NCBI GenBank assembly: GCA_029237815.1
Contig: JAQZBP010000006.1
Span: 248,001-312,000 of the forward strand
DNA length: 64,000 nt
Direction of reading: 5' to 3'
Source: Moraxellaceae bacterium
GTDB taxonomy: Bacteria > Pseudomonadota > Gammaproteobacteria > Pseudomonadales > Moraxellaceae
Shown piece by piece: positions 26,331 through 48,791 of the stretch; position 1 is the first letter of the stretch; each line of letters starts with the position of its first letter. The notes under the pieces were generated by a model. The model was not told the DNA's origin. It did not search any database and was given only the letters and a program-made list of their open reading frames with translations. Both the position numbers and the translations under genes were made by a program.

Positions 26331-26363
26331 TATTCTTCCTTGCCGAATTTGAAACTCAGGTGA

Positions 26364-26836: not shown

Positions 26837-26852
26837 GTTATTTCTCCTATTC

Positions 26853-26899
26853 GCCTAACGTGGAGTTAAGGCGGCGGCACGACCGCGAGTGCGGCTAGC
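26853..26899 (-). repeat. attC site of the 26895-27245 cassette
   Basis: GCCTAACGTGGAGTTAAGGC, a GCGGCACGACCGC hairpin and the end GGCTAGCC. This compact site matches the integron consensus on both sides. Confidence 0.87.
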
Positions 26900-27245
26900 C
26901 CGAGGGCAGCAGGACCCAAGCAATGCCTCTCTCTTCCAGGAACGCCCGAAAGGCCGCCATCTCAGCGGCCGAAGACAGTAGCGGCTCTTCCCCGAGACGG
27001 ACGCACCCGGGCGCCCATTTGAGCTCCGAGCCTGGAGCCCATGTCTTGAGATGCTCCTTTAAGGCTGCGACCGAGGTGAATTCCGCTTTCTCGATGCTCA
27101 GGATGAATTGTGGCTTCTTGCCATCGAGCCTATAGGTCAATTGCAGTTCCCGCTTCACGGGAGCGTTGGCCTCTGCCGCCGCGGCGGGCAAGCCTAGGGC
27201 CGAGAGAAGCAGGAGCAGGCTTGGCAGGAGCTTCCATGGCTTCAT
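26895..27245 (-). CDS. Exported small protein (cassette gene)
   Basis: A 116-residue protein with signal peptide LLPSLLLLLSALGLPAAAAEA, cleavage near residue 24. The mature part of about 90 residues looks like a compact alpha/beta domain (LQLTYRLDGKKPQFILSIEKAEF, then AALKEHLKTW). One cysteine is visible (GCVRLG). No recognised family. Confidence 0.72.
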   Translation of the reverse strand: MKPWKLLPSLLLLLSALGLPAAAAEANAPVKRELQLTYRLDGKKPQFILSIEKAEFTSVAALKEHLKTWAPGSELKWAPGCVRLGEEPLLSSAAEMAAFRAFLEERGIAWVLLPSG

Positions 27246-27251
27246 ATATGA

Positions 27252-27362
27252 GCCCTAACGTGGAGTTAACAGCGCGCACTGGCGCCGGTGGCTACGGGAG
27301 CCAAATGTCTCCGCATCGGCCGTTAATCGACCGGTTAAGCGCGCCCCGTTACAGCACACAGC
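27252..27362 (-). mobile_element. ORF-less cassette consisting of an attC
   Basis: GCCCTAACGTGGAGTTAACAGCGCGC at 27252 starts an attC whose right arm is GGTTAAGCGCGCCCCGTTAC at 27334-27353. The next left arm begins at 27363, so the space between two recombination boundaries is about 111 bases. That leaves no room for a gene. It is most simply a non-coding or remnant cassette. Confidence 0.55.
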
Positions 27363-27466
27363 AGCCCTTGAGGTTGAGTTGACGTTACCGTAGCCCGTTC
27401 ACCATTTGAAGCTCGGGAAGCACCGAGTGACGGCTTCAGTTGCAGCCATGCCAAGGGAAGGGGACG
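27363..27466 (-). repeat. attC site of the 27467-27634 cassette
   Basis: GCCCTTGAGGTTGAGTTGACG marks the left arm. The rest of this 100-base gap up to the stop of the next gene contains AAGCTCGGGAAGCACCGAG pairing possibilities. It is less well conserved than the neighbours. Confidence 0.5.
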
Positions 27467-27634
27467 TCACTTCTTCTTGCTTTGGCCCTGCATCCGGCGA
27501 GCCCAATCGTCTTTTTGCTCACGCTCGGCTTCCCGCTCTGCGGCGGCCAGCTTTCCTCGGCGATACGCTGCTATGAAACCCAGGCCACGCCAGACGAGAA
27601 AGAAGATGACCAGAATGCTCAGGAGTGTTTGCAT
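27467..27634 (-). CDS. Small single-helix membrane protein (cassette gene)
   Basis: A 55-residue protein: hydrophobic helix at residues 3-22 (TLLSILVIFFLVWRGLGFI), then a charged, Glu/Arg/Lys-rich tail ending QGQSKKK. ATG at 27634 follows GAGAAGCG. A longer frame reaches 27757 but passes through the attC and is unlikely. Possibly a membrane-anchored helper or toxin-like small protein; nothing decides this. Confidence 0.6.
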   Translation of the reverse strand: MQTLLSILVIFFLVWRGLGFIAAYRRGKLAAAEREAEREQKDDWARRMQGQSKKK

Positions 27635-27974
27635 TTTCGCTTCTCGTAGGGCCCAACGCTGGAATTGGGACGCGCGCTTCCGGCTTTGGATGTAGAGGCT
27701 GATGTGGACCGTGTCGCTTTGAATGAGTTGCCAGGCCGGGCTGATGGGCAAGGCCAATAAACCGCACTTTATTTCCGGGGCGGAGCCAATGGAAAGCCGG
27801 TTGCAACAGCCCCAGCACCAGCTCTAACAGATCCTTTAGCCAACGCAGAAATGACCTGGGCGGTGATTCCTTGGCGCGGAGGCGAACCGTAAAAATCCAC
27901 GTGGCATAGGCGACCAGGCAGAGGAACAGCACCACGTAAATTGAAGCGACAAGGATGGAGAGTGCGGTTTCCAT
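27519..27974 (-). CDS. Membrane protein whose frame runs across an attC (cassette gene)
   Basis: The first part, about 62 residues from METALSIL, has a membrane helix (residues 5-30) and a polar helix, FLRWLKDLLELVLGLLQPAF, like a real small protein. After that the frame continues without stop through the attC at about 27652 and into the next cassette, where it overlaps another gene in a different frame. The last 70 residues look non-native. Loss of the original stop codon or a frameshift is likely. Confidence 0.5.
   Translation of the reverse strand: METALSILVASIYVVLFLCLVAYATWIFTVRLRAKESPPRSFLRWLKDLLELVLGLLQPAFHWLRPGNKVRFIGLAHQPGLATHSKRHGPHQPLHPKPEARVPIPALGPTRSENANTPEHSGHLLSRLAWPGFHSSVSPRKAGRRRAGSRA
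27652..27765 (-). repeat. attC left arm and remnant of the 27974 cassette
   Basis: GCCCAACGCTGGAATTGGGACGCGCGC is a recognisable left arm. The right arm is not obvious and the gene on its right reads through the site. Confidence 0.55.
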
Positions 27975-28010
27975 GGCTCTGACTGTGAATTACTAAATGA
28001 CCGAACTGGG

Positions 28011-28069
28011 GCCTGACGTTGGAGTTGAGTGGCACCGTTTACGGCGTCAACTCGAACGAGTCTTTAGCT
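28011..28069 (-). repeat. attC site of the 28078-28431 cassette
   Basis: GCCTGACGTTGGAGTTGAGTGGC on the left is complementary to GCGTCAACTCGAACGAGTC on the right, giving an almost complete stem with the usual unpaired bases. CTTTAGC ends the site. Confidence 0.85.
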
Positions 28070-28077
28070 TTCGCCCT

Positions 28078-28431
28078 TTAGTGGAAAGTAACCGCCACCC
28101 TAATATCCTTTGCCCACTCATAATTGGAAAGCGCGCCCTTCACCAACTCTTCTATGTGGCGGACATAAAACGCCATCTCTTGCTCGGTAGGATCAGGCTG
28201 ACCAGTTGCGCTGGATATAACAACCGACACCTGTTGCTCTGCCGGGAATACCGCTACCACCACCCCCACCCGGCGCTTCCATAGATCGGTGGTCTGCGTA
28301 ATACGGCTGTAGAGAGAGTCTTGCAGCCATTCGGCCCTGCTGGGCGAATAGGGGGAGGAAAGATCCCCTGCGATGGCAGGAGCACTGATTAAGGAAAGAG
28401 AGAGGACAAAGGACATGGCGAGCAGCTTCAT
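28078..28431 (-). CDS. Exported small protein (cassette gene)
   Basis: A 117-residue protein with signal peptide MSFVLSLSLISAPAIAG. Mature part of about 96 residues: an N-terminal helix after a Ser/Pro-rich stretch, a strand (RVGVVVAVFPAEQQVSVVI) and further helices ending RVAVTFH. Probably periplasmic. Family not recognised. Confidence 0.75.
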   Translation of the reverse strand: MKLLAMSFVLSLSLISAPAIAGDLSSPYSPSRAEWLQDSLYSRITQTTDLWKRRVGVVVAVFPAEQQVSVVISSATGQPDPTEQEMAFYVRHIEELVKGALSNYEWAKDIRVAVTFH

Positions 28432-28447
28432 TATTTTTCTCCTGTGA

Positions 28448-28508
28448 GCACCTGAAGTTTGAATTGGGGGTCGCCGACGGCGCCCCCATGAATGAATCGT
28501 CAGTCCGC
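28448..28508 (-). repeat. attC site of the 28510-28749 cassette
   Basis: CACCTGAAGTTTGAATTGGGGGTCGCC and its partner GGCGCCCCCATGAATGAATCG form a stem with GGGGG/CCCCC at its heart. The core ends are diverged. Confidence 0.6.
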
Positions 28509-28509
28509 G

Positions 28510-28749
28510 TTACTGCGACGCGGCCAGATAGATAAACCACATACCCCAGGCGAAGAGCAAAAGAATGGCAAGCGCCGGGATGGATGCCAATGCCTACTTG
28601 ACCATGAACCAGGTCATGGACCAGAAGGGCATTTTGAAGTCTGTGACCACGACTCTTTGCGCCTGATCTTCAGCCGCATATGAAGTGCCGGGCTCAGCCA
28701 GGCGATCCTCAGAGCGGACAGAGACGTGGAAATTGGGCGGATTGGGCAT
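28510..28749 (-). pseudogene. Small membrane protein gene broken by an in-frame TAG (cassette gene)
   Basis: From ATG at 28749 the frame encodes 51 residues (MPNPPNFHVS ... FWSMTWFMVK), then meets TAG at 28594-28596, and continues in the same frame for 27 more residues, ALASIPALAILLLFAWGMWF..., to TAA at 28510. The two halves read as one 79-residue protein with a soluble start and a C-terminal membrane helix. The expected residue at the stop is probably Trp (TGG to TAG). So the gene is likely a recent nonsense mutant, or a read-through gene, or a base-call error. Confidence 0.6.
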
Positions 28750-28800
28750 GCGGCTTCTCTTTTTCTTATTGCGGCGCTATTTACGGCCCCCGCCATCAGA

Positions 28801-28850
28801 GGCCTACCGTGGCGTTAAGGCCGCGTGCTGCCGGCCTGTGATTTTGGCGC
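28801..28850 (-). repeat. attC site of the 28815-29291 cassette
   Basis: GGCCTACCGTGGCGTTAAGGCC on the left with GCCGGCCTGTGATTTTGGC as the other arm. Overlaps the end of the adjacent gene. Confidence 0.7.
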
Positions 28851-29291
28851 CGCAGGTGCCGTGTCGGCCTGCAGCGACGGAACAGGCTGGCAGGGAACCA
28901 AGCGCGGCGGACCGTACTGGATAATGCTGACAAGCGTGGTTGTTTGCCAAGGGGATGACGGGCCCTCACCCTCCGTCAGGCCGGAGAGCAGGGCGGTGGC
29001 ATCGACTTCCAGCCCACAGCGGGAGACGAGGTCGATGCTTTCCTGCAGACCTTGTACGTGAAGCAGCGCCAAGGCGTGCTCTGGATTTGCTACACCTACC
29101 CTCTTGCTTGAGCCTGTGGCTGTGAAATACAGCTCGCCGTCTTCGAAGAGGCCAAACCGGCCCGTGGCTTTTACCTGCCCCGAATAGGGCGACTCACCGT
29201 CCACGGTGTGCGAATGCCGCATGCCCTGCTTTAGCTCCTGCGCAAGGGCCTGGCTGGTCAGGATGAGGAGAAGGAAAAGAATGCGGACCAT
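28815..29291 (-). CDS. Exported protein of unknown function (cassette gene)
   Basis: A 158-residue protein with signal peptide VRILFLLLILTSQALAQE. Mature cysteines are in SRCGLEVD and LVPCQPV. It ends in a Pro/Ala/Ser-rich tail (SLQADTAPAAPKSQAGSTRP) that lies over the attC, so the tail may be cassette-specific. An upstream ATG at 29336 belongs to the attC on its right and is not used. No family recognised. Confidence 0.72.
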   Translation of the reverse strand: MVRILFLLLILTSQALAQELKQGMRHSHTVDGESPYSGQVKATGRFGLFEDGELYFTATGSSKRVGVANPEHALALLHVQGLQESIDLVSRCGLEVDATALLSGLTEGEGPSSPWQTTTLVSIIQYGPPRLVPCQPVPSLQADTAPAAPKSQAGSTRP

Positions 29292-29296
29292 TTTTA

Positions 29297-29354
29297 GCCA
29301 GCCGGTGGAGTCAAGTGGCGCCGCCAACAGCGCCATTTGAACGATGGGTCAGGC
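29297..29354 (-). repeat. attC site of the 29349-29609 cassette
   Basis: AGCCGGTGGAGTCAAGTGGCGC pairs with GCGCCATTTGAACGATGGGTCAGG. The arms CAAGTGGCGC/GCGCCATTTG are clearly complementary. Confidence 0.75.
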
Positions 29355-29609
29355 ATTGCTCGCGCCTTTCGCCTTCTTGTACCGCCGCTCCTGGAGATAC
29401 CACATGAACGCTCCGAAGGCGGTGCCGCCGCAAAGCCAGACAATTGCTTGCCCTAACAGGAACATCGGGGTTTTAGGATCATCAAGAACGAAGAAGGCCA
29501 TGGCAATGAACATGGCAACGCCATAGCCAAGCACACCGTTCAAGAGAATGAACCGGCCCATCCCCTGCGCCTGCGCTATTTCCCACTGTTCCATTTCCTT
29601 GGGCTTCAT
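29349..29609 (-). CDS. Small two-helix membrane protein (cassette gene)
   Basis: An 86-residue protein: polar helix (KEMEQWEIAQAQGMGR), two membrane helices (about 18-40 and 48-68), then a basic tail (QERRYKKAKG). The charge distribution puts both ends in the cytoplasm. Ribosome site not distinctive. Family not recognised. Confidence 0.72.
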   Translation of the reverse strand: MKPKEMEQWEIAQAQGMGRFILLNGVLGYGVAMFIAMAFFVLDDPKTPMFLLGQAIVWLCGGTAFGAFMWYLQERRYKKAKGASNA

Positions 29610-29613
29610 ATCT

Positions 29614-29700
29614 CACTACCTGGCGTGAAGTTCAGGGGCGCGCCGCCGCGGGTTGCGACGGGAAATGCCCAGGATGCGCATCTCCAGGATGCAGGGTCAG
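29614..29700 (-). repeat. Degenerate attC site of the 29697-30017 cassette
   Basis: CACTACCTGGCGTGAAGTTCAGG is a plausible left arm in the expected position, followed by a GGCGCGCC-rich stem. The match to the consensus is weak. Confidence 0.45.
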
Positions 29701-30017
29701 GAGGCGCGGCGACGGCGCTTGCGCGCCAAGGGGCGTGCTTTGCCCTCTACGATGGTAACCGCGGCCAGGCACAGTGAGTGTCCGGCGGAACTGGCGGAGC
29801 CTTTTGCGTGAAGCTCCCCTGCCAGGTCGAAAATGGATGTCAGCGTGTGGCGCGGCACGACTTTAATGGCGTCTGCAACCGCCTCCTCGCCAAACAGGCG
29901 GAGTTCCTCACAAATGGCCTCTCGGGTTGCAGCCACCCTCGGTATCCGCGACTTGGGTGCCGCCTCGAGGTCATCTAGCGCCGCGCTCAACATTTCCTTT
30001 AAGCCAGCCGGATACAT
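29697..30017 (-). CDS. Small cytoplasmic protein of unknown function (cassette gene)
   Basis: A 106-residue protein without signal peptide or membrane segment. It is helical, Ala/Glu-rich, and ends in a very basic tail (KARPLARKRRRRAS) that could contact nucleic acid. I recognise no family. It is the first cassette of the array in the direction of transcription, so in a functional integron it would be closest to the missing attI. Confidence 0.65.
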   Translation of the reverse strand: MYPAGLKEMLSAALDDLEAAPKSRIPRVAATREAICEELRLFGEEAVADAIKVVPRHTLTSIFDLAGELHAKGSASSAGHSLCLAAVTIVEGKARPLARKRRRRAS

Positions 30018-30022
30018 ATTCG

Positions 30023-30072
30023 TGCCCCTTAACCCTGGAGTTAAGTCCGTGAACTCGGACCACTTCCGTGAA
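30023..30072 (-). repeat. Rightmost attC-like site of the first array
   Basis: CCCTTAACCCTGGAGTTAAGTCCG with hairpin GTCCG-TGAACT-CGGAC. It lies upstream of the first cassette gene, where an attI or the attC of a lost cassette would be. No integrase follows. Confidence 0.65.
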
Positions 30073-33307: not shown

Positions 33308-34276
33308 TTAACTCAGACCAATTAACTCATATATTTTTAGGAGTTCTTGCTCGCACGCAGAGTCCCTGACTTCGCCATTTTCACCAAAAAGGTCAGGCAG
33401 CATATAGCGCCCCTTAACTGTTAAATTAAATTCATTCCTTGATCCGTCCTCCAAAATATCCGTCTTGACTTCATCTACAGTGAAGTAATTGTAGAACTTT
33501 TCCAGTTGCTCGTCGGCCGTTATAAAGCATCCCCTCAAGTACCGGCCAAGCCCCTCTCTGCCGGCCTCTTCTATCATGTGACAGAGTTGCCCAATTCTTT
33601 GAATTGTCTGTATGTCGCCAAGCGCGTTGCTTGGATTGAACTCATTCATGTTCTTCTTGAATTTCATGACCTTCTTGGCAGGTTGGCATCCATAAACACA
33701 AGCAAGAGAGGCAAGTACAACCGGATGAACCCTGGGTATTCCCAATCTGGTCGCCTCTTCGCAAATGGACTCGGCGACCTGAAACCTCCTTTCACTAGCA
33801 ACCGGATTATAGATTTTGGAGCAATTCACAAACCTCAAGAACTCGTGGTAGCTCTCACCCAGCAGCTCCGGATGTACGCCATTCAACTCTCGAATGTACG
33901 AGAACACGAACTCCCTAGGCTCTTGGAGTATTGCTCTCTCAAAGAATGCCTCAATAGCATCCATGTCTCTGGAGGCTTCGTCTAAAAGCTGATCAACGGT
34001 CCATCTGGTTTGCTGGTTGCTTGCCTTCTCCATCAGAGCAGGAAAGTAAGAAATTGCGTTATGCGCAAGATCAATGCGGCGCAACAACGCGGCGTAATGA
34101 TCGCCGACAGCGTCCTCGCCCTCACCCTTAGAGAGCCGCGTTTTAATTCGGCTAATTGAGCAAATGTCGAGAAAGTAGACGGTCGGAATTGATTCATTCC
34201 AGGCCACAAGGGCGTTTATTCCATCTTGGTTTTCCGGCGTAACTGGAATGCTGATAGTGAATTTTCCTTTCATCAT
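33308..34276 (-). CDS. PIN-like domain protein of unknown function
   Basis: A 322-residue protein coded by clearly AT-richer DNA than its surroundings, a sign of transfer. The start VYFLDICSI places an Asp (D37) at the end of a first strand as in PIN nucleases. Later acidic residues lie in NALGDIQTIQRIG (D221) and GCFITADEQLEKF (D255), the usual places for the metal cluster. This PIN-fold reading is my inference from motif spacing and needs a profile search. If correct it is an RNase and a plausible effector next to the lipase-STAND gene, which ends upstream 233 bases away on the same strand. Confidence 0.55.
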   Translation of the reverse strand: MMKGKFTISIPVTPENQDGINALVAWNESIPTVYFLDICSISRIKTRLSKGEGEDAVGDHYAALLRRIDLAHNAISYFPALMEKASNQQTRWTVDQLLDEASRDMDAIEAFFERAILQEPREFVFSYIRELNGVHPELLGESYHEFLRFVNCSKIYNPVASERRFQVAESICEEATRLGIPRVHPVVLASLACVYGCQPAKKVMKFKKNMNEFNPSNALGDIQTIQRIGQLCHMIEEAGREGLGRYLRGCFITADEQLEKFYNYFTVDEVKTDILEDGSRNEFNLTVKGRYMLPDLFGENGEVRDSACEQELLKIYELIGLS

Positions 34277-34509: not shown

Positions 34510-37500
34510 TTACCTCGCAAGCTCCTGTAGCCGCGATGACTTGCGTGCCCTGGACTGCGATCTCCGCCGAACTGGTGCACGAGCGCTATTTCCAACCGGA
34601 GTCCGCTTATCTAAATCCAGAGTCATCTCTCTTGCCTGTGGCATGTTGAATTCCAACATACGCTCGAAGAGCGCCGACCCGGCTGATCGCTCAACCGCAC
34701 CCATGTCTTGAAGCTGCAGCGCAATATCCAGTAACCACTCTGTGCTCAAGTACCAGGATGTTGCGATATTTCCCATTTGATCGCCCGCTACGTTCAGCAG
34801 CGCATGGACCACCTGGCAGACTCGCTCAGGCTCTGTCGCCACTATTTTGACAAGCATTTCTGGCAAGCGTTCAGCTCGACCATTTTTCAGCACTTCAGGA
34901 AATGCCACTAGGGCATCTAGGAGCTCTCTAGTCTCGGCATCGGCAGCGAATCCATCATTCACAAATATCGCGGACAGCGCGTTCAGAACGCGATCATCGC
35001 TGCTACGCAGGAGATGAAGTAGAACTGGATGGACTACCGGCCGGCTCATTGGTTCGTGCCACAAATTGGCCACGCTGTGTGCCACGCCCAATGCAGCCGC
35101 TGAAGCAGCATCATTGACGAGGACCGCAACCAGCTCACGGGACCAATCCTCCGCAGGAAAAAGGGCATGTCGCAAGCCGGCCAGCTCCCCCGCTCCCTGG
35201 AGCCCTAATCCGCCCCCTTCGATAATTCCCATCAGCCATCGCTGTGCCGCGACAGCCGAAGCCCATCGAAACGAGCGCGCGACGAAGTTAGCCCAGCCTC
35301 GCCCGTTGACGATGTATGGCGCGCCCGCAACCAAATGATCAACAAGAGCCTCCGCCCTTGAGCGGTCTGCCATCTGCAGATACATCAGTTCGCGCTGAAT
35401 CATTGCCTCCCACACGCGGGACGACTCGACGCGCGCAACATGCCGCTCAAGGATGGAAAGCCAACGATCAAGCCGAGGAGGCTCCGTGGTCAGGCACGCG
35501 GACGTTAGAGCGCTCAACGTAGGATAGTTACCGTTCGGAAGGACATCTATTGATCCATGCCCCCACAAAACTGCCGAGGGATTGTCTTCTGCATCAGTCT
35601 CAATCTCGCTCGAATCTTCAGCCGTACCAAGAACCAACCAACGCTCCATTCGGTCCAACAAATCATCCGGTACAGGGGCCTCTTTGTTTGCAGCGCTCGA
35701 GATTGCATAAGCCGCGTCACGCCGAAAACCGGCGCCAACAAACCCCTTGTCTTCCAATTCGGCTATCAACGAATAGAGTTCTGGCGCTGTCAAGCCAGCC
35801 GGAACCAGTCCGCGCAGAGCACAGGAAACCGGAATCTCATTGCGCCCAGGATCGAGTGCCCTAACGATCCGGAGAACCTTGGCCAGATTGCTCTTGGCCA
35901 GCTCTGCCAATTCACGGCCAGCCTGTATCGCGCCTCCCTTCATGCGATGCCGCGGATGATCCCAAGCCACGTCATCCGTCAGTTCGTTGAATAGGTTCAG
36001 TACATCGGCATCAGCCGCTAGATCCATTTGGGTCGCGTTTACCGGACTTCCAATCCATTGGGCGCCAGAGAAATGCACGTCCTCGCTAGTTAGGCCCGGA
36101 AACGCGCGCTCCTCTTCCTCCACAAGCCTTTGTACGGCCGGACTACTTCGGCCGACTGGTAGCGCTCGAAGCAGTCGCAGCCGATGCTGGCGAGCCCACT
36201 GAAGTCGCTGATGGCGAATGCTTGGATCATCCTGCTGGACCGCATCGCTGTAGTAGCGCCAATCTCGAAGCGCCGACTCCAAGCGAGCATAAGTAGAATC
36301 GTCTATCAGTGGGCAAATAGCCTCAATCAGAGCGACGCTCTCCTTGTGCACATCGGTGTATGGCCCAAGAACCAGCCGGCGAGGATCGCCGAGCAAGTAG
36401 TCGAATACGCATTTCGGTGAGTGTGCAACGACGCGCACGAGACCTACGGCCAAGAATCTGTGCACTAGAAGCAGCTCGGACTGGGAATTCGCCGCCACGA
36501 ACTCCAGATAGCCTTCCGGATCGGAGTCAGCCCAGCCTTGAACACCTAGCTGAACGGATCGCAGTAAGGGGCGCTCATATCGAGCCTCTTCCTCATCTAG
36601 ATCCTGAAACAGCAGCCCACTGCTCTGGCGATAGCCGATCACAAAGCTGGGCGCCTCAGCCGCGCATAGCTCCAGCCCATCTAAAAGTAGCGGCCACAAA
36701 GCAACTACAAAGTCCCGCGGGGAGGCCTCTGCTATAGCGTCCATGTCAGGAAACTGCCGCGCCCCGAGAATTGACTGAACGATCTTAGACGCCCTGGCAG
36801 CAGCCCCTTCATCCTCTGCGGAAGAAGTGGCCAAGGGCGCCGTGGCAGCATTAATCTGACGCTTGATCCATGCCGCAATCAACCTCGGAGCTTCCTTAGG
36901 CAAAGCAGCGCTCACCACACCAGCTAGATTCCCTATGGCCCACTCGGCAATCGAACTTCTCCCAGCAATTAAGATAAGACTGTCTAGCCAATGGCCGGCC
37001 TGCGGCGCGACATCGCCGGCACCCAGCACGCGCCAGCTCAATAAATCTCGATCCTGTTTTGGTAACCAATGCCGGCGCACAAGATCGACAACCGAGTCAG
37101 CGCTGAAGTGCAATGCCTGCCTAAGCATTGGCAAGAGCGCTTGGGCCTGCTCCTCAGGCAAGGACATCAGTCTCGGAAGATGTATTGGAGACAAGATCGC
37201 AAACCAGCCTGGGCTTCCAACGGCAGCCCCAAGGAATCTGGGCAGGAACCATTGATTCATCATCGCTTGCTCCACGAGCCGTCGCTCCGCAGGCATCGGC
37301 GCTGATTGCAACCCCAGAAACTCAATCAACAACATCTTCAAATGGGGGCGAAGATTGGCGGCCCATAGTCGGTCAATCTCGACGCCATACTCTTCTGGGC
37401 TTGCGCCTCGAAAATACCCGAGCGCATGCCACAACTGTGGTCGAATACGTAGGCTACCTTGTTGAGCTCGCACCGTTTCGGTAAGGCTGCCCCTCTCATC

Positions 37501-39312
37501 CAGAAAGCTTCGCGCGCGTACGAACTCATAGAGAGTTTGATGCCGAAATTCCACTCGCCCGGGTCCTTGATCCACACGAAGCAAGCCAGCAGCCGCTAAT
37601 TCCTGAATCTCCAAGTAGTGATCTTCGACTTGAGCCAAAGGAAGCCCCAGAACTTCGCGTTCTGCCATCAATCTAGCCAGATGACGTAACGTGGCGCGAC
37701 GTCTACCGCTGATGTCGCTCAGCACATGGGTTTCCCATTGTCGCTCTAGTAACCCCTGAAAACTCCTCAGAACCTCTGGCTCAGTTAGGCCACCGAGGAG
37801 TGAAACAAAGATGTCAAGCGCATGTGGAGACCGCAGAACCTGCTGTATGTCCTGGTTCCAAGCCTCTGCTTGAAGACCCTTCGCCGACAGCACAGGCAGC
37901 ACGGCTGACCACTCTGGCAGCTCCAGTCGGATGACCGTCGCGTCCAAATTCCGAAGTGCAGGATCGTGCTTTTGCTCGAAGGTGCGGCACGAAATTACGG
38001 TGTGAACTCTTTCAACTTCGGAGAGATCTTGAACCAGGTCGAGTAAGACGCGTAAGCGTGCTGAGTGCTGGACAACCAAGTCGGCCAAGGCATCCACCTG
38101 ATCAATGATCACAAGTACGGGCGATATTTTTGCGAGATTTCGCAAGACTGCGCTGGCATCTAAGTCGAGATTCAGATGCCTCGAAAGTGCTTCTCTATTC
38201 AGCACATCAGGCGGTAGCCGGTCAGCTTTTATGGCAAGAACACACCAGCCTGCTTTCTGCATTTCCTGAGCTAGCCGCACCAGCAATGCAGACTTCCCGC
38301 ATCCCGGGTCGCCAAGCAGGAAATGGGTGGTCGACGAGTCCGCATTTAAACTTCCGATTAGCTTGTCCAGTTCTGGCCGCTGAAGCCATGTCCCATCAGC
38401 CAACGTACTAGGCCAACTCAAAAGGGGCGCTGAAGCATTCCGTAGCACTGTTGGGATGTCAGTGGAGCCGGACCAGGGAGTCGGCCGACTACGATCAGTC
38501 GGCGGATGGCCTGAAGGTCCGGCCATCATACCCTTGAGGAACTCAACCAGCGCTTTGTGGATTAGCTCCTGCCGAGATTTTGGCTTAGCAATCTCAATAT
38601 GGTCGCCATCAATTGGAGTCGGTATAACTCCAGCGATCCCAGGATCGCTGGAGTTCCTATCGACGATCAGCTGTCGCCGCCCTAGTGTGAAGCCAAAAAT
38701 ACGGCGTCCTAAAAGGACGCCTTTTGATTCAAAGAAGACTCGCACACCAAATCTGCGCTGCACATGCAGGTGTCGAAACTGACCATTTAGCTGCTTAAGC
38801 CATGGATCATCATTAACCATATTGGTGACCTGCGCGTTCGTCCTCAGCAGGAGGCGCAGCTTGTCCGCAATCGTGGCGAGACTCGACCCTTGGTGAGGCG
38901 TGCCGACAAAGACGACACCGGCAATTCGCTCCAAAAGCGTCAATCGTTGCGGGTCGCCGAGTGCCTCGGCTTGCGTCATACCAGACTTGATCACTAGGCC
39001 ACCGAGGCTGTGCCCCACTAGAACGATTCTGCGGCCCTGCAATCCCTGCTCAACCTGCAAGGCAGAAAAAAGTGCTTCGCCAAGATCCGCAAGGTGCATG
39101 GCTGCATCAGTCCAGCCTGAAAGCGCAGCGCCATATCCTGCAACCCAGACATTGCACCCAACATCTTCCCCAATCCAACTCGGCCAAAGGGTCACATGGT
39201 CAGCTGGATTGTGCATCCATGTAGTTCGCGCATTTCCGCCAAGACCGTGCACGAAGACGACGTGCAGCGCATCCGTCGAATCGGTTTCATACACCCGTGT
39301 CAGGGTTGTCAT
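34510..39312 (-). CDS. Lipase-STAND ATPase, NLR-like protein (candidate defence sensor)
   Basis: A 1600-residue protein with three parts. Residues about 10-260 form an alpha/beta hydrolase: VVFVHGLGGNARTTW, nucleophile S102 in VGHSLGGLV, VFVGTPHQGS, and a candidate catalytic H238 in DGDHIEI. Residues about 310-640 are a P-loop NTPase of STAND/NACHT type: Walker A GDPGCGKS (334-341), Walker B VLVIIDQVD (399-407), sensor-like VISCRTF, then a winged-helix-like part ending RVEFRHQTLYEFVRA. The remaining 950 residues are alpha-helical repeats. Effector-NTPase-sensor order is that of bacterial NLR and Avs proteins. Ribosome site GGAGCGAAGCTG. A defence role is inferred, not shown. Confidence 0.85.
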   Translation of the reverse strand: MTTLTRVYETDSTDALHVVFVHGLGGNARTTWMHNPADHVTLWPSWIGEDVGCNVWVAGYGAALSGWTDAAMHLADLGEALFSALQVEQGLQGRRIVLVGHSLGGLVIKSGMTQAEALGDPQRLTLLERIAGVVFVGTPHQGSSLATIADKLRLLLRTNAQVTNMVNDDPWLKQLNGQFRHLHVQRRFGVRVFFESKGVLLGRRIFGFTLGRRQLIVDRNSSDPGIAGVIPTPIDGDHIEIAKPKSRQELIHKALVEFLKGMMAGPSGHPPTDRSRPTPWSGSTDIPTVLRNASAPLLSWPSTLADGTWLQRPELDKLIGSLNADSSTTHFLLGDPGCGKSALLVRLAQEMQKAGWCVLAIKADRLPPDVLNREALSRHLNLDLDASAVLRNLAKISPVLVIIDQVDALADLVVQHSARLRVLLDLVQDLSEVERVHTVISCRTFEQKHDPALRNLDATVIRLELPEWSAVLPVLSAKGLQAEAWNQDIQQVLRSPHALDIFVSLLGGLTEPEVLRSFQGLLERQWETHVLSDISGRRRATLRHLARLMAEREVLGLPLAQVEDHYLEIQELAAAGLLRVDQGPGRVEFRHQTLYEFVRARSFLDERGSLTETVRAQQGSLRIRPQLWHALGYFRGASPEEYGVEIDRLWAANLRPHLKMLLIEFLGLQSAPMPAERRLVEQAMMNQWFLPRFLGAAVGSPGWFAILSPIHLPRLMSLPEEQAQALLPMLRQALHFSADSVVDLVRRHWLPKQDRDLLSWRVLGAGDVAPQAGHWLDSLILIAGRSSIAEWAIGNLAGVVSAALPKEAPRLIAAWIKRQINAATAPLATSSAEDEGAAARASKIVQSILGARQFPDMDAIAEASPRDFVVALWPLLLDGLELCAAEAPSFVIGYRQSSGLLFQDLDEEEARYERPLLRSVQLGVQGWADSDPEGYLEFVAANSQSELLLVHRFLAVGLVRVVAHSPKCVFDYLLGDPRRLVLGPYTDVHKESVALIEAICPLIDDSTYARLESALRDWRYYSDAVQQDDPSIRHQRLQWARQHRLRLLRALPVGRSSPAVQRLVEEEERAFPGLTSEDVHFSGAQWIGSPVNATQMDLAADADVLNLFNELTDDVAWDHPRHRMKGGAIQAGRELAELAKSNLAKVLRIVRALDPGRNEIPVSCALRGLVPAGLTAPELYSLIAELEDKGFVGAGFRRDAAYAISSAANKEAPVPDDLLDRMERWLVLGTAEDSSEIETDAEDNPSAVLWGHGSIDVLPNGNYPTLSALTSACLTTEPPRLDRWLSILERHVARVESSRVWEAMIQRELMYLQMADRSRAEALVDHLVAGAPYIVNGRGWANFVARSFRWASAVAAQRWLMGIIEGGGLGLQGAGELAGLRHALFPAEDWSRELVAVLVNDAASAAALGVAHSVANLWHEPMSRPVVHPVLLHLLRSSDDRVLNALSAIFVNDGFAADAETRELLDALVAFPEVLKNGRAERLPEMLVKIVATEPERVCQVVHALLNVAGDQMGNIATSWYLSTEWLLDIALQLQDMGAVERSAGSALFERMLEFNMPQAREMTLDLDKRTPVGNSARAPVRRRSQSRARKSSRLQELAR

Positions 39313-39541
39313 CAGCTTCGCTCCGCTAATTTTTTAAAAAGCACTCTATCTCTACTACATGCCCCGATGGCCCACTCGAGGAGGCTGGTTTGAAATAAAA
39401 ACTGGTGAATTCGGCAGTCCGCGAAGCGCATTCCAGGATAACCAGTCGCCTATTCCGACAGTCTGAATGGCTGCTCCTAGCCGAAGTTGATATGTATGCG
39501 TGTGCCACCCAACAATGACGTTGGGTCCGTACGCGAAATTG
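39313..39541. other. Spacer upstream of the lipase-STAND gene
   Basis: No convincing gene in 229 bases. It contains a short palindrome, CCCAAC-AATGAC-GTTGGG at 39508-39525, that could be an operator or a remnant of an attC. The promoter of the large gene should be here. Confidence 0.4.
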
Positions 39542-39877
39542 TCAGCCGAGACTTACATCGCTTTTAGCATTTATGACTTCTGACTTTCGAGCAGACTGCA
39601 CACACCCATAAATCCGGCTAGCTACATATTGTCCGGCCAAACCGATGGCGACGATGCCTGCAACAACCACATGCTCGCGCCAACTTGATGGAAGATTGGC
39701 CGGCGTGCCGTTATAGCCCGCAACGATTAGTGCGACGCCGCCTGGCATGCTAAATGCCGCCAGGAAGACCAGTACTGTATGCGGAAGATCGAAAGCCTTT
39801 TTGAAGTAAAGTTGAAGGCCGACATATGTAGACGTGCAGACAAGGCCAGCGGTGATGCCAATGGTGGTGGTATCCAT
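39542..39877 (-). CDS. Small membrane protein, coupled to a zinc-ribbon protein
   Basis: A 111-residue protein starting DTTTIGITAGLVCTSTY, with three predicted membrane helices (about 4-20, 34-56 and 70-90) and a polar tail. The longer frame to 39982 overlaps the upstream gene, so the ATG at 39877 is preferred; it follows the TGA of the upstream gene by one base, giving translational coupling. Function unknown. Confidence 0.65.
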   Translation of the reverse strand: MDTTTIGITAGLVCTSTYVGLQLYFKKAFDLPHTVLVFLAAFSMPGGVALIVAGYNGTPANLPSSWREHVVVAGIVAIGLAGQYVASRIYGCVQSARKSEVINAKSDVSLG

Positions 39878-39878
39878 T

Positions 39879-40121
39879 TCAGCCAACTCCCTTGCCTTCC
39901 TTGCCCAAGATTGCACCAAGGACACCTCCGACAATCGCTCCAACAGGCCCGCCAAGCGCTGCTCCGAGAGCGGCCCCACCAATTAGCCCGACAGCTTGTG
40001 AGGTGTCGCCGGTTGGCTGTGCTGCGGGTAAGAATGCGCCACAATTCCCGCAGCGATACGGTTGCTGAGAACTAGCCTGAATCCGATTAATTGACCTGCA
40101 ATTCGTGCACTGAACTTCCAT
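39879..40121 (-). CDS. Zinc-ribbon plus glycine-zipper small protein
   Basis: An 80-residue protein. CTNC (residues 5-8) and CGNC (24-27) form a four-cysteine zinc ribbon. The second half, GLIGGAALGAALGGPVGAIVGGVLGAI, is a glycine-zipper membrane segment like those in pore-forming or channel proteins. Immediately followed by the small membrane protein gene. The two may act together at the membrane. Part of the second cassette cluster. Confidence 0.7.
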   Translation of the reverse strand: MEVQCTNCRSINRIQASSQQPYRCGNCGAFLPAAQPTGDTSQAVGLIGGAALGAALGGPVGAIVGGVLGAILGKEGKGVG

Positions 40122-40130
40122 ATCAACCCC

Positions 40131-40192
40131 CTGTAACGGTTAACTTTTAAATTGGGCGGATTCGAAAGCGTCCGCTTGAAAGAGTTTTTAGG
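40131..40192 (-). repeat. Degenerate attC site, second cluster
   Basis: CTGTAACGGTTAACTTTTAAATTGGGCGGA on the left with TCCGCTTGAAAGAGTTTTTAGG on the right. GCGGA/TCCGC form the apical stem. The ends are less conserved than in the first array. Confidence 0.55.
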
Positions 40193-40203
40193 TGTGTTCT
40201 CTC

Positions 40204-40731
40204 TTAATTTGGATACGGTGTTATTTGAAGCACACCAGAAATCCGCGATTCAACACGCGCCATCAATAGCTCATCACCTTTGCACTTATTGAGAAACGAC
40301 TCTATTGCATGAACAACATCATTCACGAATGATTTTGCACCTATGAGCGCGAGACCGGGGCATATACTGGGGTTGTAATTGTGATTGCCACCATCGTGAT
40401 ATGCGAACCTTACGGTGTCAGCATCCTCGTTATGAAGCTCTGATTCAGAGCCGTAAGTATGTAAAAATGCACAGCGGGCCGCGTAAACATCCTTGCCGCG
40501 GTATTGGTATTGCTGATCAGGATGGGCATGTAGATGTTCATCTACCCAGAGTTTGAAGTCTGATCTCGTGACTTTTTCCTTATCAATTGGCCTGCCTAGA
40601 TTCGCCAGAGAATCAATACATATAAATGCCATAGCAATAGATGCCATTGTTATTCCATTCTCATCGCAGCGCTTCAATTCTGAAACTAGATCAATAATGG
40701 ATTGCCAGTTATTTGTGGAGCTTTTCGGCAT
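40204..40731 (-). CDS. HEPN-like small protein (cassette gene)
   Basis: A 175-residue helical protein. The motif RCAFLH (R86 to H91, spacing Rx4H) in DVYAARCAFLHTYG matches the catalytic signature of HEPN ribonucleases, which are common in toxin-antitoxin and abortive-infection systems. The surrounding helices and size suit the family. Start at 40731 is just inside the attC on its right; the upstream ATG at 40791 lies over the site. The HEPN call is by motif only. Confidence 0.6.
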   Translation of the reverse strand: MPKSSTNNWQSIIDLVSELKRCDENGITMASIAMAFICIDSLANLGRPIDKEKVTRSDFKLWVDEHLHAHPDQQYQYRGKDVYAARCAFLHTYGSESELHNEDADTVRFAYHDGGNHNYNPSICPGLALIGAKSFVNDVVHAIESFLNKCKGDELLMARVESRISGVLQITPYPN

Positions 40732-40745
40732 ACCCGTTCCTACAC

Positions 40746-40809
40746 ATATAGCGTTCGAGTTAAGTGGCGATCTGCGCAGGCGGGCGCCCACTAAAACGAG
40801 TTGTTAGCT
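40746..40809 (-). repeat. attC site, second cluster
   Basis: GCGTTCGAGTTAAGTGGCG and CGCCCACTAAAACGAGTTGTTAGC are good complementary arms around CGGGCG. GTTAGCT ends the site and overlaps the stop codon of the gene on its right. Confidence 0.75.
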
Positions 40810-41244
40810 ACTTTTTTTCGCCGCCTTAATAGCCTCTGAAATTCGATTGGCTTTGATGACAGAGGATGCGCTCCAGAATGCACTGATCACGCATGAGAAC
40901 AGGGCGACTCCTACTAGCCATGCTGGGTGGGCCGCGATATTTCGGACCAAAAGTAGATATAGGCAGGCGGCAAGCAAAAGGTAGAAGCATGCGTTTACCC
41001 TGAGCCTGAGCTCTTGCTGAAATGCCTCGTTGAGTGACTTCGAGCTGGCCCCGACGCTAGCCACGAGCTGATTCCATGCTTGGATCCTTGCCTCTGACTT
41101 GCTTCTCGCCCAAACGGAAAGGCCAGCCGCCCAAGAGTCAAAGGCCTCCTTTAAGTACGCTGAGATCATATTTATTAGGAGGCCCGCAATAACGACACTG
41201 AACCACCACGATGGGCTTGTAAGTTCGTTTGTGATTTTGTCCAT
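40804..41244 (-). CDS. Membrane protein of unknown function (cassette gene)
   Basis: A 146-residue protein with a first membrane helix (about 12-30), a polar helical stretch (SKSEARIQAWNQLVASVG), and two more helices (about 87-104 and 108-128). The polar region may form a coiled coil. A lysine-rich end (AAKKSS). Lies between two attC-like sites. No family recognised. Confidence 0.7.
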   Translation of the reverse strand: MDKITNELTSPSWWFSVVIAGLLINMISAYLKEAFDSWAAGLSVWARSKSEARIQAWNQLVASVGASSKSLNEAFQQELRLRVNACFYLLLAACLYLLLVRNIAAHPAWLVGVALFSCVISAFWSASSVIKANRISEAIKAAKKSS

Positions 41245-41581
41245 TTTTATCTTTTAGCTAACGTTAAATGGGTCCCAAGAACGGGCCCTAGTCCTTTTCA
41301 AATTCATGTCGCCCAATCCGGCTCGGAGCCCACAAGCCCTTGAACCGACAACCCCCAGCATCAGGTTGGCTGCCCTTATCGGCCGATAATCTGCCAGGTT
41401 AGGCCCTAACCCACAGCGCTGGCACTTACTTCAAACCACCTCGCCAGCCGCCTCCCCGACATTACCCCAGCCCCGACGCGCCCCTCTACCACTTCGTAAT
41501 TCCCGCATTAGCTCCCTCCCCCACCAAATGCCGCCCATTAAAAAGGGCGCCCATTGGCGCCCTTTTTAATCCCCGACTAAC
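41245..41581. other. Non-coding region at the island border
   Basis: 337 bases without a gene. The left end, TAGCTAACGTTAAATGGG, is attC-like. Near 41397-41411 is GGTTAGGCCCTAACC, an exact 15-base palindrome centred on C that contains GTTAGGC and CCTAAC, the ends used by the array. The rest is Pro-rich-codon-like but not open. The copper receptor terminator is at its right end. Confidence 0.55.
41536..41572 (-). terminator. Terminator of the copper receptor gene
   Basis: TTAAAAAGGGCGCC-CATT-GGCGCCCTTTTTAA is a perfect hairpin with an A run before and a T run after, lying directly after the stop codon at 41582. Confidence 0.92.
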
Positions 41582-43735
41582 TCACTCCAGCGTCCAATTC
41601 ACCTTCAACCACGCCATCTGCCCCGGCTCATTCACGCGCGTGGTCTGCACATACCCCGGAATCGCCCCGCCCATGCCATTCCCCCCGGCACGGCTCACGA
41701 ACTCGGCATACCGGCGGTCAAACACGTTGTCGATGCCGACCGACACCAGCACCGCCTTCGTCGGCCGGTAGCCGCCATTCACGGAGAGCACAGCAAAGCC
41801 CGGCGTGCCGCCCAGATCGCGGCCCACGATATTGCCTTCGTTCAGCGCAAAGCGGTCCTGCTCCGCCACGAAGCGCCCGAGCAGGCCGGCGCTCCACACG
41901 CGGTTGTCCCAGGCGAGGCCGAGGCGCCCTTCCAGCGGCGGCAATTGCGGCAGGTCGGTGTCGTCGGTGTCGTTACGGCCGCGCACATAGCTCAGTGCCG
42001 AGCTCAGCTTCAGCGTGCCGGTGAGCGCGTAGTCGGCGGAGAGTTCGCCGCCCCAGGTCCAGGCTTCCACGTTGCGCGCGGCGCCGTTCATTTTCATCGT
42101 GTAGTCGATCAGGATGAAATCGGCTGTGCGGCCATAGAACAGCGAAGCCGAGGCCTGCAGCCGCTTCGCCTGGTAGAGCGCGCCCACGTCGAGCTGGTCG
42201 GTCTGCTCGGGGCGGATGTCGAAGGCGGAGAGCGAGCTCACGCCCTGCTTGGCGATCAGCTCCCAGTAATCCGGAAAGCGCTCCACATGGCCCAGGCCCG
42301 CGTACACCAGCACCGGCGCGCCGGCGTACTGCTGCTCCAGGCGCACAAAGCCGCTCTCCAGCGTGTCGCGGCGCGTCTCGTTGGCGCTCGGGTTGGGCAT
42401 CGCCATGGGCGGCATCGGCGGCATCGCCATGCCGGTGATCGTGGTGCGCAGGTCGGTGGCCTGCCAGCGGTCGCTGCGGTAGCCGGCGTGCAGCGTGTTC
42501 TGCTGGCCGAGTTCCTGCTGGAGTTCGGCGAACACGCCGTACTGCTGGATCTGCGCGTCTTCTTTCAATGCGGAGTAGGGCATGCCGGGCATCGCGCTGC
42601 GCGCGGCGTGGGTGTTTTCCTGCACGTCGGCGCCGAGCGTGAGCAGCGTCGGCGCGGCCACGCGCAAGCTCGTGGCTAGGCGGCCGCCGTCGGTGTCGCG
42701 CAGCAGGTTGGCGTAGCCCATGGTGCCGGGCGTGCGCAGCTCCTGGTCGTCCATCACGTGGTCGACGTCGCTGGTGTAGGCGGAGAACTCCACTTTTTCG
42801 AACAGCGGGCTCAGGTTTTTCTGCTCGACGCGCAGCGAGGCGGCCTCGCGGCGGAATTTCGTGCCGTCCATGCTGCGGTCGGCATAGGCGGCTTCGCCGT
42901 CGCTCTGCGTGGCGGAGAGTTCGACGAGCGTGTCGTCGCCGGGCGTCCAGCCGAGTGCGGCGCCGGCGTTGTAGCGGTGGTATTCGGCGTGCACGCGCTT
43001 GCCGTCGCCGTCTTCGTAATCGTCGGAGCGCGAATCGCTGCCGTTGAGCGCGAGATAGCCGGTGGCGTTGCCGAGGCGCGCATCGAGAATCGCGTCCGTG
43101 CGGTTGAAGCTCGCCACGCCGGCGCTGGCGTAGAGCACGACGCCGGGTTCAACAAAGCGCTCGTGGCTGCGCTCGAACAAAATCGTGCCGGCGCTCGTGC
43201 CGGGGCCGTGCGCCACGGACTGCGGGCCCTTGATCACGGTGAGCAGGTCGTAGGCTTCCGGGTAGATGTAGGCGGTGGGCGCGTCCATTCGCGCGTTGCA
43301 GCCGCCGAGGATGCCCTGGCCGTCGGCCAGGATGGTCAGGCGCGAGCCGGACATGCCGCGGAACACGGGGTCGCCGTCGGCGCCGCCTTTGCGGATCACG
43401 CTGAAGCCGGGAATGGTCTTGAGGTAGTCGGCGCCGTCGTGCGCGGGCAGCGGCTGGCGCGGCTGCTTCAGGTCGGTCTGCACGGTGACGGGCGCGGTAA
43501 GGGCGGTGGCGGTTACCACCACGGCGGGCAGTGCGGGAGCGGCGGGTGTGCCGGCGCGGGTGGCGGCCAAGGCGGCTTCTTCAGTAGCGGCGGACTCAGC
43601 CGTTGCAGTTTCAGCCGCGCTCGCGGCAGCGGCGCTGCCTGCAGCGGCATCGGCCGGGGCTGCTTCGGTGGCGTGAAGGGGCAGCGCATGCGTCGCCAGC
43701 AGCGCGGCAACAAGGGGGGCAAGGCGAAAGGACAT
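41582..43735 (-). CDS. TonB-dependent copper receptor (OprC-like)
   Basis: A 717-residue outer-membrane beta-barrel receptor with a signal peptide (MSFRLAPLVAALLATHALPLHA) and a long Ala/Glu-rich stretch. The plug starts near residue 75 with VVVTATAL, includes FRGMSGSRLTILADGQGILGGCNARMDAPTAYIYPEAYD, the signature of OprC copper receptors, and the barrel ends in aromatic WTLE. A methionine-rich extracellular segment, MAMPPMPPMAMPNPS, near residues 435-450 is suitable for copper binding. Likely needs TonB/ExbB/ExbD from elsewhere in the genome. Confidence 0.93.
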   Translation of the reverse strand: MSFRLAPLVAALLATHALPLHATEAAPADAAAGSAAAASAAETATAESAATEEAALAATRAGTPAAPALPAVVVTATALTAPVTVQTDLKQPRQPLPAHDGADYLKTIPGFSVIRKGGADGDPVFRGMSGSRLTILADGQGILGGCNARMDAPTAYIYPEAYDLLTVIKGPQSVAHGPGTSAGTILFERSHERFVEPGVVLYASAGVASFNRTDAILDARLGNATGYLALNGSDSRSDDYEDGDGKRVHAEYHRYNAGAALGWTPGDDTLVELSATQSDGEAAYADRSMDGTKFRREAASLRVEQKNLSPLFEKVEFSAYTSDVDHVMDDQELRTPGTMGYANLLRDTDGGRLATSLRVAAPTLLTLGADVQENTHAARSAMPGMPYSALKEDAQIQQYGVFAELQQELGQQNTLHAGYRSDRWQATDLRTTITGMAMPPMPPMAMPNPSANETRRDTLESGFVRLEQQYAGAPVLVYAGLGHVERFPDYWELIAKQGVSSLSAFDIRPEQTDQLDVGALYQAKRLQASASLFYGRTADFILIDYTMKMNGAARNVEAWTWGGELSADYALTGTLKLSSALSYVRGRNDTDDTDLPQLPPLEGRLGLAWDNRVWSAGLLGRFVAEQDRFALNEGNIVGRDLGGTPGFAVLSVNGGYRPTKAVLVSVGIDNVFDRRYAEFVSRAGGNGMGGAIPGYVQTTRVNEPGQMAWLKVNWTLE

Positions 43736-47141: not shown

Positions 47142-47217
47142 GGCTGGCTCCGGACGGCGCGGCAGGAAGCCCGAGCGGCCTTCCGTGGCCGCGGGCTTTC
47201 TGGCTACAATGCCGGTC

Positions 47218-47325
47218 CGCCCGAGGAGCGCTGCAACGGATGTTCATCCGCCAGGCTCGGGCCCTCCGGACCCGCTCCGGCTGTAACGGCGCTCGCTTGA
47301 CCCTGATGCGGTTGGCGAGCCCTCC
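47218..47325 (+). promoter_or_regulatory. S-adenosylhomocysteine (SAH) riboswitch in the ahcY leader
   Basis: The leader contains the SAH aptamer core CCGAGGAGCGCTGCAACGG (47222-47240), AGGCTCGG (47254-47261) and GGCGCTC (47289-47295), the known order of the SAH riboswitch. The element GCTCGC (47292-47297) overlaps the last stem strand and is complementary to GCGAGC (47316-47321), so the two can form alternative stems, giving a possible on/off switch before the start codon. It lies between the kinase stop and ahcY. Confidence 0.93.
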
Positions 47326-47378
47326 TGTGTGACCTCCCCGCCGCGTCATTTTTCCGATTCTTACGAGGAATGACGCCC

Positions 47379-48791
47379 ATGACTGCCAAAGTCGATCTCA
47401 AGACCTTCACCGATTACAAAGTCGCCGATATTTCCCTGGCCGCCTGGGGCCGCAAGGAAATCATCCTGGCCGAAACCGAAATGCCCGCCCTGATGGGCCT
47501 GCGTCGCAAGTACGCGGCCAGCAAGCCGCTCGCCGGCGCGAAAATCATGGGCTGCATCCACATGACCATCCAGACCGCCGTGCTCATCGAGACGCTGGTC
47601 GAGCTCGGCGCCGAAGTGCGCTGGTCCTCCTGCAACATCTTCTCCACGCAGGACCACGCCGCCGCCGCCATCGCCGCCGCCGGCATTCCCGTGTTCGCCT
47701 GGAAGGGCGAGACGGAAGCCGAGTACGAGTGGTGCCTGGAGAAGACCATCCTCGCCGGCGACAAGCCCTGGGACGCCAACATGATCCTGGACGACGGCGG
47801 CGACCTGACCCTGCTCGTGCACAACAAGTACCCGCAGATGCTGAAGACCATCCACGGCATCACGGAAGAAACCACGACCGGCGTGCACCGCCTGGTGGAA
47901 ATGCTGGCGAAGGGCGAGCTGAAGGTGCCCGCCATCAACGTCAACGACTCCGTCACCAAGAGCAAGAACGACAACAAGTACGGCTGCCGCCACTCGCTGA
48001 ACGACGCCATCAAGCGCGGCGTGGACATGCTGATGGCCGGCCGCCGCGCGCTCGTGATCGGCTACGGCGACGTGGGCAAGGGCTCGGCGCAGTCGCTGCG
48101 CCAGGAAGGCATGATCGTGCGCGTCACCGAAATCGACCCGATCTGCGCCATGCAGGCCTGCATGGACGGCTATGAAGTCGTCTCGCCCTACCTGAACGGC
48201 CTCAACACCGGCAAGTTCGAGGACATCGACGCGCGCCTGCTGGGTGAAACCGACCTCATCGTCACCACCACCGGCAACACCAACGTGTGCGACGCCAACA
48301 TGCTGCGCGCGCTGAAGAACGGCGCCGTGGTCTGCAACATCGGCCACTTCGACACCGAGATCGACACCGCCTACATGCGCCAGAACTGGCACTGGGAAGA
48401 AGTGAAGCCGCAGGTGCACAAGGTCTACCGCGCCGACAAGGGCAGCAATGTGAACCCTTCCGACCCGGACTACCTGCTGCTGCTGTCCGAAGGCCGCCTG
48501 GTGAACCTGGGCAACGCCACCGGTCACCCGTCGCGCATCATGGACGGCTCCTTCGCCAACCAGGTGCTGGCGCAGATGTACCTGTACGAACAGAAGTTCG
48601 CGACGCATTCGCCGGCGGTGCAGGAGCGCATGCTGAAGGTGGAAGTGCTGCCGAAGAAGCTGGACGAGGAAGTGGCCGCGGCCATGGTCGCCGGCTTCGG
48701 CGGCGTGATCACGCGCCTCACCGACACGCAGGCGAAGTACATCGGCGTGAGCGTGGAAGGCCCGTTCAAGCCGGAACACTACAAGTACTGA
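47379..48791 (+). CDS. ahcY: Adenosylhomocysteinase
   Basis: A 470-residue enzyme that hydrolyses S-adenosylhomocysteine to adenosine and homocysteine. Features: N-terminal [21 protein letters not shown], the [13 protein letters not shown] motif, [18 protein letters not shown], the NAD-binding [10 protein letters not shown], and the C-terminal [11 protein letters not shown] that reaches the neighbouring active site. ATG at 47379 is chosen, since ACGAGGA is at ideal spacing; an ATG at 47370 is too near this site. Regulated by the upstream SAH riboswitch. metF follows 268 bases later. Confidence 0.97.

Follow-up and report, generated by a model that had tools for sequence, protein, structure and literature searches.

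An attI site and gene cassettes without a neighbouring integrase gene in a Moraxellaceae genome, and further such attI sites across the genus

The window, i.e. the whole 64,000-nt stretch of DNA analysed here, spans positions 248,001–312,000 (forward strand) of contig JAQZBP010000006.1 from a Moraxellaceae bacterium (GCA_029237815.1; genome G000, 3.12 Mb in 12 contigs, 93% complete). Every feature of the cluster is on the minus strand and, from right to left, the order is a TonB receptor gene, an attI, cassette 1, cassette 2, a zinc-ribbon/glycine-zipper ORF, a hydrophobic ORF and a lipase-STAND gene:

41582–43735, minus: TonB-dependent receptor gene (named by eye), in the place expected for intI
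41256–41323, minus: attI without neighbouring intI, ending in the recombination core GTTAGCT (41256–41262); attI profile and pairwise alignment
40752–41261, minus: gene cassette 1, from the TT of the attI core to the last G of its attC; start-core pairing
40804–41244, minus: cassette 1 coding sequence (ORF), 146 aa, hydrophobic by eye
40746–40809, minus: attC of cassette 1; similarity to an intact attC on contig C6 of G000
40204–40731, minus: cassette 2 coding sequence, HEPN-like, 175 aa from ATG, 195 aa from GTG
40132–40193, minus: site read as the attC of cassette 2, with a preserved 5′ half and a decayed 3′ half; weight matrices
39879–40121, minus: zinc-ribbon and glycine-zipper ORF, 80 aa, after the last attC and a candidate cassette gene only; Pfam and NCBIfam below cut-offs
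39542–39877, minus: hydrophobic ORF (by eye) directly downstream of the zinc-ribbon ORF, 111 aa from ATG, 146 aa from TTG
34510–39312, minus: lipase-STAND NTPase, 1600 aa (Pfam Abhydrolase_6, E 6e-7; AAA_16, E 1e-6)

G+C content is 47–60% across 33–42 kb, against ~70% at 30–33 kb and from 42 kb onward. The TonB receptor gene has an orthologue (76–77%) in the related genome G059, where both flanks of window positions 17712–41582 (ORF 16483–17712 at 97%, TonB gene at 77%) are found on one contig, identifying the intervening segment as a variable locus. The 24 kb between them (17.7–41.6 kb) is replaced in G059 by ~13.5 kb with no match to window ORFs of at least 80 aa (E 1e-8, >60 bits), so that a clean empty site was not obtained.

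An nhmmer profile built from five intI-linked attIs of the same genus only, and run on the window plus seven further stretches of G000, matched the window (E 2.6e-9) and sites on contigs C1 (E 3.6e-9) and C6 (E 5e-9), the next match having E 4. By blast against the loci of relatives the region is 75.8% identical over 66 columns to the attI of G053 and G038, and a gapless 64-bp alignment to the G053 attI has 47/64 identical positions (local score 30), whereas 500 random window stretches aligned to six attIs scored no higher than 16. When the G053 attI was blasted against the whole of G000, the sites on C6 and C1 were listed and the window site was missing. Three attC-like sites had been proposed here in an earlier note made from the sequence; those at 40746 and ~40131 (half-decayed) are retained as attCs, but the third, at 41258–41410, is the attI region. 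As an attC this third candidate was rejected, its ends ranking 238th and 103rd by weight matrix.

For attCs, a simple R″/R′–L″/L′ scan gave 11 matches in the window (scores to 23.0), against 4 and 9 (to 22.2) after two block shuffles, and missed the sites of the cluster; models trained on the genus took its place. Intact attCs for these models came from stretches beside intI genes of the family: covariance model R1 contains seven attC sites, R2 contains 30 R1 matches from nine loci searched (5/30 from another genus of the family) and weight matrices of attC halves derive from 24 attCs of the genus. The best R1 and R2 matches in the window are minus-strand sites at 24.3–29.7 kb, in what the earlier note had called the first cluster.

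The attC at 40746 stands as previously claimed. Its strongest evidence is the match of 40746–40809 to an intact attC in another array of the same genome (G000:C6; L037:7158–7221), with 47/64 identical positions, gapless (blastn E 8e-10); no other 64-mer on either strand of the window exceeds 35/64. Covariance scores are low (R1 14.0 bits, E 0.54; R2 11.8 bits, E 1.5). By weight matrix the 5′ half ranks 6th (12.5) and the 3′ half 7th (17.5) among all window positions, ranks that alone are no proof, since 20 single-strand shuffles reached comparable scores (5′ maxima 7.7–14.3 plus one of 19.5; 3′ maxima 6.2–18.9).

While an integron cassette is circular, its first bases form part of its own attC. 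The start core of cassette 1 (GTTAGCT) pairs 7/7 with its own R″ (AGCTAAC, 40803–40809), ~450 bp away, including a departure from the consensus common to both, against only 4/7 with the adjacent R′. As a control, 6–7 of 7 positions pair in 13/13 cassettes of three intI-linked arrays; in arrays without intI the counts are 6, 7 and 7 (G000:C6), 7 and 5 (G000:C1) and 3/7 for cassette 2 of the window. The reconstituted circular attC of cassette 1 folds canonically (−13.3 kcal/mol, z −2.9; linear −8.4, z −0.9). Integron recombination thus inserted cassette 1 at this attI. The 146-aa protein has a homologue in Vibrio campbellii (tblastn 47% over residues 1–51, E 2e-7; 29% overall), located between VCR-type attCs by strict scan (L076 2843–2970 and 3435–3560, the latter assigned to the opposite strand by the scan and interpreted by eye). 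R2 gave no attC directly beside this gene (sole match nearby 2194–2319), the attCs there being of other type.

In cassette 2, the 5′ half at 40193 is the top 5′-half match of the window on either strand (18.3; 1/20 shuffles reached 19.5), while the 3′ half ranks 41st, the outer arms do not pair and the start core is mutated (GCTATAT). The site is absent from the listings of both covariance models at E ≤ 10 and is read here as a half-decayed attC. Cassette 1 is fully supported and cassette 2 by the 5′ half of its attC only; together with the attI, they bear out the small cassette cluster originally proposed.

The HEPN-like protein named in the earlier note is upheld, on sequence grounds, by an R86-x4-H91 motif (HEPN R-x4-6-H), with H in 11/11 and R in 10/11 aligned sequences (Cys in Reinekea); L100 was left out of the alignment because its translation contains a stop. 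The AlphaFold2 model is helical (mean pLDDT 87), and its best alignments in fold comparison are mostly to HEPN-type chains: AbiV, which we take to be of HEPN type (Z 5.6; 113 aligned, 4.2 Å), AF_0298 (Z 5.1; 111, 3.7 Å) and MntA-HepT (Z 5.0; 102, 3.3 Å), with a DinB-family protein among them (Z 5.2; 98, 2.9 Å). The Z scores of 4.6–5.6 against AbiV, AF_0298, HepT and Csm6 chains are alone not conclusive, and the top Foldseek match, AF_0298, has E 1.7. The 175-aa protein has the R-x4-H motif in common with HEPN ribonucleases, to chains of which its helical model aligns at these Z scores, but differs in having no HEPN family match in Pfam and no nucleotidyltransferase partner gene in cassette 2. 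From the motif, it probably acts as a ribonuclease, perhaps in phage defence. Neither cassette protein matched any PADLOC family at E ≤ 1.

Besides the window genome, three of 390 genomes of the order have a homologue of the HEPN-like protein, and 11 homologue loci were found in GTDB genomes (including Marinobacter, Shewanella, Nitrosomonas, Vibrio, Reinekea, Herbaspirillum and Marinomonas); the searches used gave none from plasmids, phages or viral contigs. The Reinekea and Marinomonas loci account for two of the three order-level matches (1.5 kb identical), so that the window genome belongs to the same GTDB order, Pseudomonadales. The attCs in homologue flanks rest on the strict scan, which found them on both sides at 1/11 loci (Marinomonas; 2 matches in 66 kb of shuffled control), or on inspection by eye, which found attC-like sequences on both sides in Vibrio xiamenensis and on the downstream side in Shewanella surugensis and one Deltaproteobacteria MAG. 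R2 gave no attC directly beside any of the 11 homologues, whose attCs are of other types. Given homologues in Marinomonas (by eye Vibrio) and V. campbellii arrays, both genes are cassette genes elsewhere too, and the HEPN-like family is a candidate for a defence screen. A HEPN ribonuclease as a cassette would fit the published view of integrons as stores of defence genes; cassettes often encode phage defence according to the part of PMC12444791 available.

No IntI was found above cut-off in G000; four model matches below it fall in two ORFs, read as XerC and XerD. The same search was positive in all 14 control genomes. Across the family, 13/119 genomes match IntI at E ≤ 1e-60 (12 above cut-off), five of them being among the eight other genomes of the window's genus (g1). 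With G000 only 93% complete and split into 12 contigs, the assembly may lack an intI located elsewhere. At the window site itself, a search of 41201–42000 and the upstream flank against five motif-checked IntI proteins (three in an earlier run) found no IntI relic.

Model R3, built from eight attIs including three of G000, was searched over nine genomes of the genus and gave 18 places at E ≤ 0.01 in eight genomes, five beside intI and 13 without (orphan attIs). No site was listed beside the intI of G064:C332, and there was no match in G047. Apart from the three in G000, the orphan attIs are six clear and four weak ones:

Clear, outside G000 (E ≤ 5.5e-6): G038:C14, G064:C416, G013:C4, G064:C386, G059:C2, G068:C195
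Weak (E 7e-4 to 6e-3): G053:C2, G013:C2, G027:C38, G053:C8

Clear orphan attIs are therefore present in 6/9 genomes, i.e. G000 and five of its eight relatives. An R2 attC (E ≤ 0.05) lies on the same strand ≤0.9 kb downstream of 6/13, the weak G013:C2 and G053:C8 included, and the window attI is a seventh, by pairing and similarity to G000:C6. The contig end is too near to tell at G038:C14, G013:C4 and G068:C195, and R2 gave no attC within 0.9 kb downstream at G064:C386, G053:C2 and G027:C38.

The upstream flanks of all 13 (~0.6–0.9 kb each) were searched for IntI. G064:C386 keeps 40 IntI N-terminal residues (82.5%, E 7e-17); at G064:C416 ~37 remain, an in-frame stop among them (51%, E 3e-5). 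In the eleven remaining flanks, that of the window included, no IntI match exceeded the threshold. These N-terminal fragments show loss of intI at two sites and so make it one cause of orphan attIs. Loss is likely at a third, G038:C14, which resembles the intI-linked site over 163 bp (78%), as far as the intI start.

G000 has two other arrays that begin with an attI and lack intI, at L040 3134–4263 (C1) and L037 5877–7221 (C6). Past 7.5 kb of L037, at the contig end, the C6 array gives way to a stretch resembling an insertion sequence. The motif AAGTRAGTGCCAGCG has two exact copies in the genome, at window 41417–41431 and G000:C6:43796–43810, each followed by an orphan attI core, ~127 and 155 bp further downstream. 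On C6 it lies among degenerate copies in both orientations and is perhaps the remnant of an insertion-sequence end. The motif suggested IS-mediated loss of intI; a 131-bp query covering the C6 repeats found nothing but itself across the nine genomes.

Of the components of a complete integron, an attI and cassettes with attC in line with it are present at the window locus and an adjacent intI is absent. The segment at 40.1–41.3 kb is very probably the attI end of a decayed integron that has lost its integrase gene. IntI would have inserted the HEPN-like cassette at attI first and then the membrane-protein cassette, now next to attI. Later, intI would have been lost from the site and the cassettes would have decayed in place, with half of the cassette 2 attC eroded and its start core mutated. 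The attI, cassette 1 with its attC, the lack of intI beside them and the other intI-less attIs of the genus are shown. As the window site has no intI trace, its loss there is inferred from relatives; the order of events and the mode of gene expression are likewise inferred.

It is possible, though we doubt it, that the arrays are working satellites and not relics, with attI copies dispersed to several chromosomal places and served in trans by a distant IntI. The attI of G013:C4 is 59/60 identical to the intI-linked attI of the same genome, and comparison over 733 bp gave no similarity in the flanks at E ≤ 1e-3; a match limited to attI could reflect duplication of attI by itself or, equally, loss of intI. 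The orphan-attI contig and the complete-array contig of G038 end in the same 141 bp, which start three bases ahead of the core, and both places begin with the same cassette sequence. Such dispersal is also in keeping with the intact attCs of the orphan array on G000:C6 (75, 64.7 and 40.7 bits). However, the window array is decayed (start core GCTATAT, half-eroded attC), G000 has no IntI above cut-off and the 141-bp overlap may equal the assembler k-mer length, so that it shows shared sequence and not its extent. A broader and rather more speculative view, to which we give somewhat less credence, is that the integron of the genus is a distributed system of several attIs, most without intI, on all of which a few intI genes act in trans, with cassettes moving between platforms and the window site as a silenced member.

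The earlier note had set the cluster beside a lipase-STAND gene, and Pfam and PADLOC matches confirm this neighbour: its N-terminus matches PADLOC DUF626_VIII (E 4.9e-41) and its NTPase part PDC-M54A (E 1.9e-16). In the plasmid search, the lipase part matched proteins assigned by annotation to ABC-three component or other systems, and the remainder matched a SEFIR-domain protein of a Nostoc, a mixture expected of a modular sensor. The zinc-ribbon ORF has only weak PADLOC matches, to Cas12 (E 0.025–0.057), probably because of its zinc ribbon, and the ORF at 39542 had no Pfam, PADLOC or NCBIfam match and no plasmid match. Between the latter and the STAND start, 229 bp apart, the sole R1/R2 listing is a perfect 20-bp palindrome at 39507–39526 (ACCCAAC-N6-GTTGGGT), equivalent to both outer attC arms without an interior; at E 0.76 (R1) and 0.41 (R2) it is not significant, though it could be a collapsed attC. 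The STAND gene was also considered as a cassette and rejected, R1 and R2 finding no attC around it.

The model of the earlier note, that cluster and STAND gene form one anti-phage island with the cassettes as accessory parts, is improbable. The low-GC stretch at 33–42 kb spans both, STAND and HEPN-like proteins lie side by side and defence cassettes are known (PMC12444791, in the text available). Against this stand the 229-bp gap and the lack of R1 or R2 attC matches around the STAND gene, and no STAND-length ORF was seen in the ORF lists of 10/11 HEPN homologue loci (by length only, in flanks ≤3 kb; the eleventh is unlisted). Nearness is the only link between STAND gene and cassettes. An anti-phage function of the cluster itself may be plausible; that its protein types are typical of anti-phage modules, as had been stated, stays an inference. 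Least credible is placement of the cassettes by a distant IntI at a chance secondary site (attG) that was never an integron: off-target insertion is one of three origins proposed for clusters of attCs lacking integrases (CALINs), with loss of intI and rearrangement (PMC8618304, as far as its accessible text goes), but a 64-bp attI homologue directly precedes cassette 1, and a chance site would not resemble attI over 64 bp.

CALINs resemble the locus in having cassettes with attC and no intI nearby. By the CALIN criterion (at least two attCs, no intI), the locus has one clear and one half-decayed attC; it differs in being headed by a recognisable attI and in having only one well-formed attC. 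IntegronFinder does not detect attI outside class 1 (PMC9024848, in the portion seen), and CALINs and single attC sites without intI are reported across Shewanella (PMC9229058, in the sections available). In the literature covered, which included few subscription journals, a single precedent for an attI-headed cluster without intI was found, in the accessible text of PMC9892861: the CALIN of Shewanella prophage M16-3, which lacks intI, has an attI of its own and lies next to a complete integron. M16-3 is one prophage, whereas orphan attIs of the present genus are on chromosomal contigs in 6/9 genomes, two sites having intI relics. An integron remnant of Treponema phagedenis similarly kept cassettes and attC after loss of intI; attI is not described in the text covered (PMC3607928), whereas the window locus has one. 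The delta-attI cassettes of class 1 and 2 integrons also have attI sequence outside its normal place, but there, in the available text of PMC12901181, attI pieces (14–18 nt of attI1, one complete) replace attC after the gene inside arrays, whereas the window attI is ~64 bp and precedes the first cassette.

Arrays without intI, and one prophage array with its own attI (PMC9892861, from the same partial text), are thus already known. New are a genus with recurrent intI-less attIs at several sites, some of which keep IntI stumps, and a simple test, an own-genus attI profile plus start-core pairing, that separates relic integrons from off-target insertions. The genus-specific profile distinguishes off-target insertion from loss of intI or rearrangement site by site and is usable in any genus that still has some intI-linked attIs. 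Docking sites without intI in related bacteria show one way in which stray cassette clusters can arise.

Elsewhere in the window, the first cluster of the earlier note (24374–30046, minus strand) contains decayed attC-like sites with the 3′ motif of the genus, TTAACTCCAACGTTAG, and no attI was found there. It could be the distal part of the array with attI at 41.3 kb, split by ~3 kb of host-like DNA (30.2–33.2 kb). At the far end of the low-GC stretch, a 322-aa ORF (33308–34276, minus strand) has no significant Pfam, PADLOC, NCBIfam or PHROGs family. A SAH riboswitch (47217–47301, plus strand; 64 bits) lies directly upstream of ORF 47370–48791, probably ahcY.
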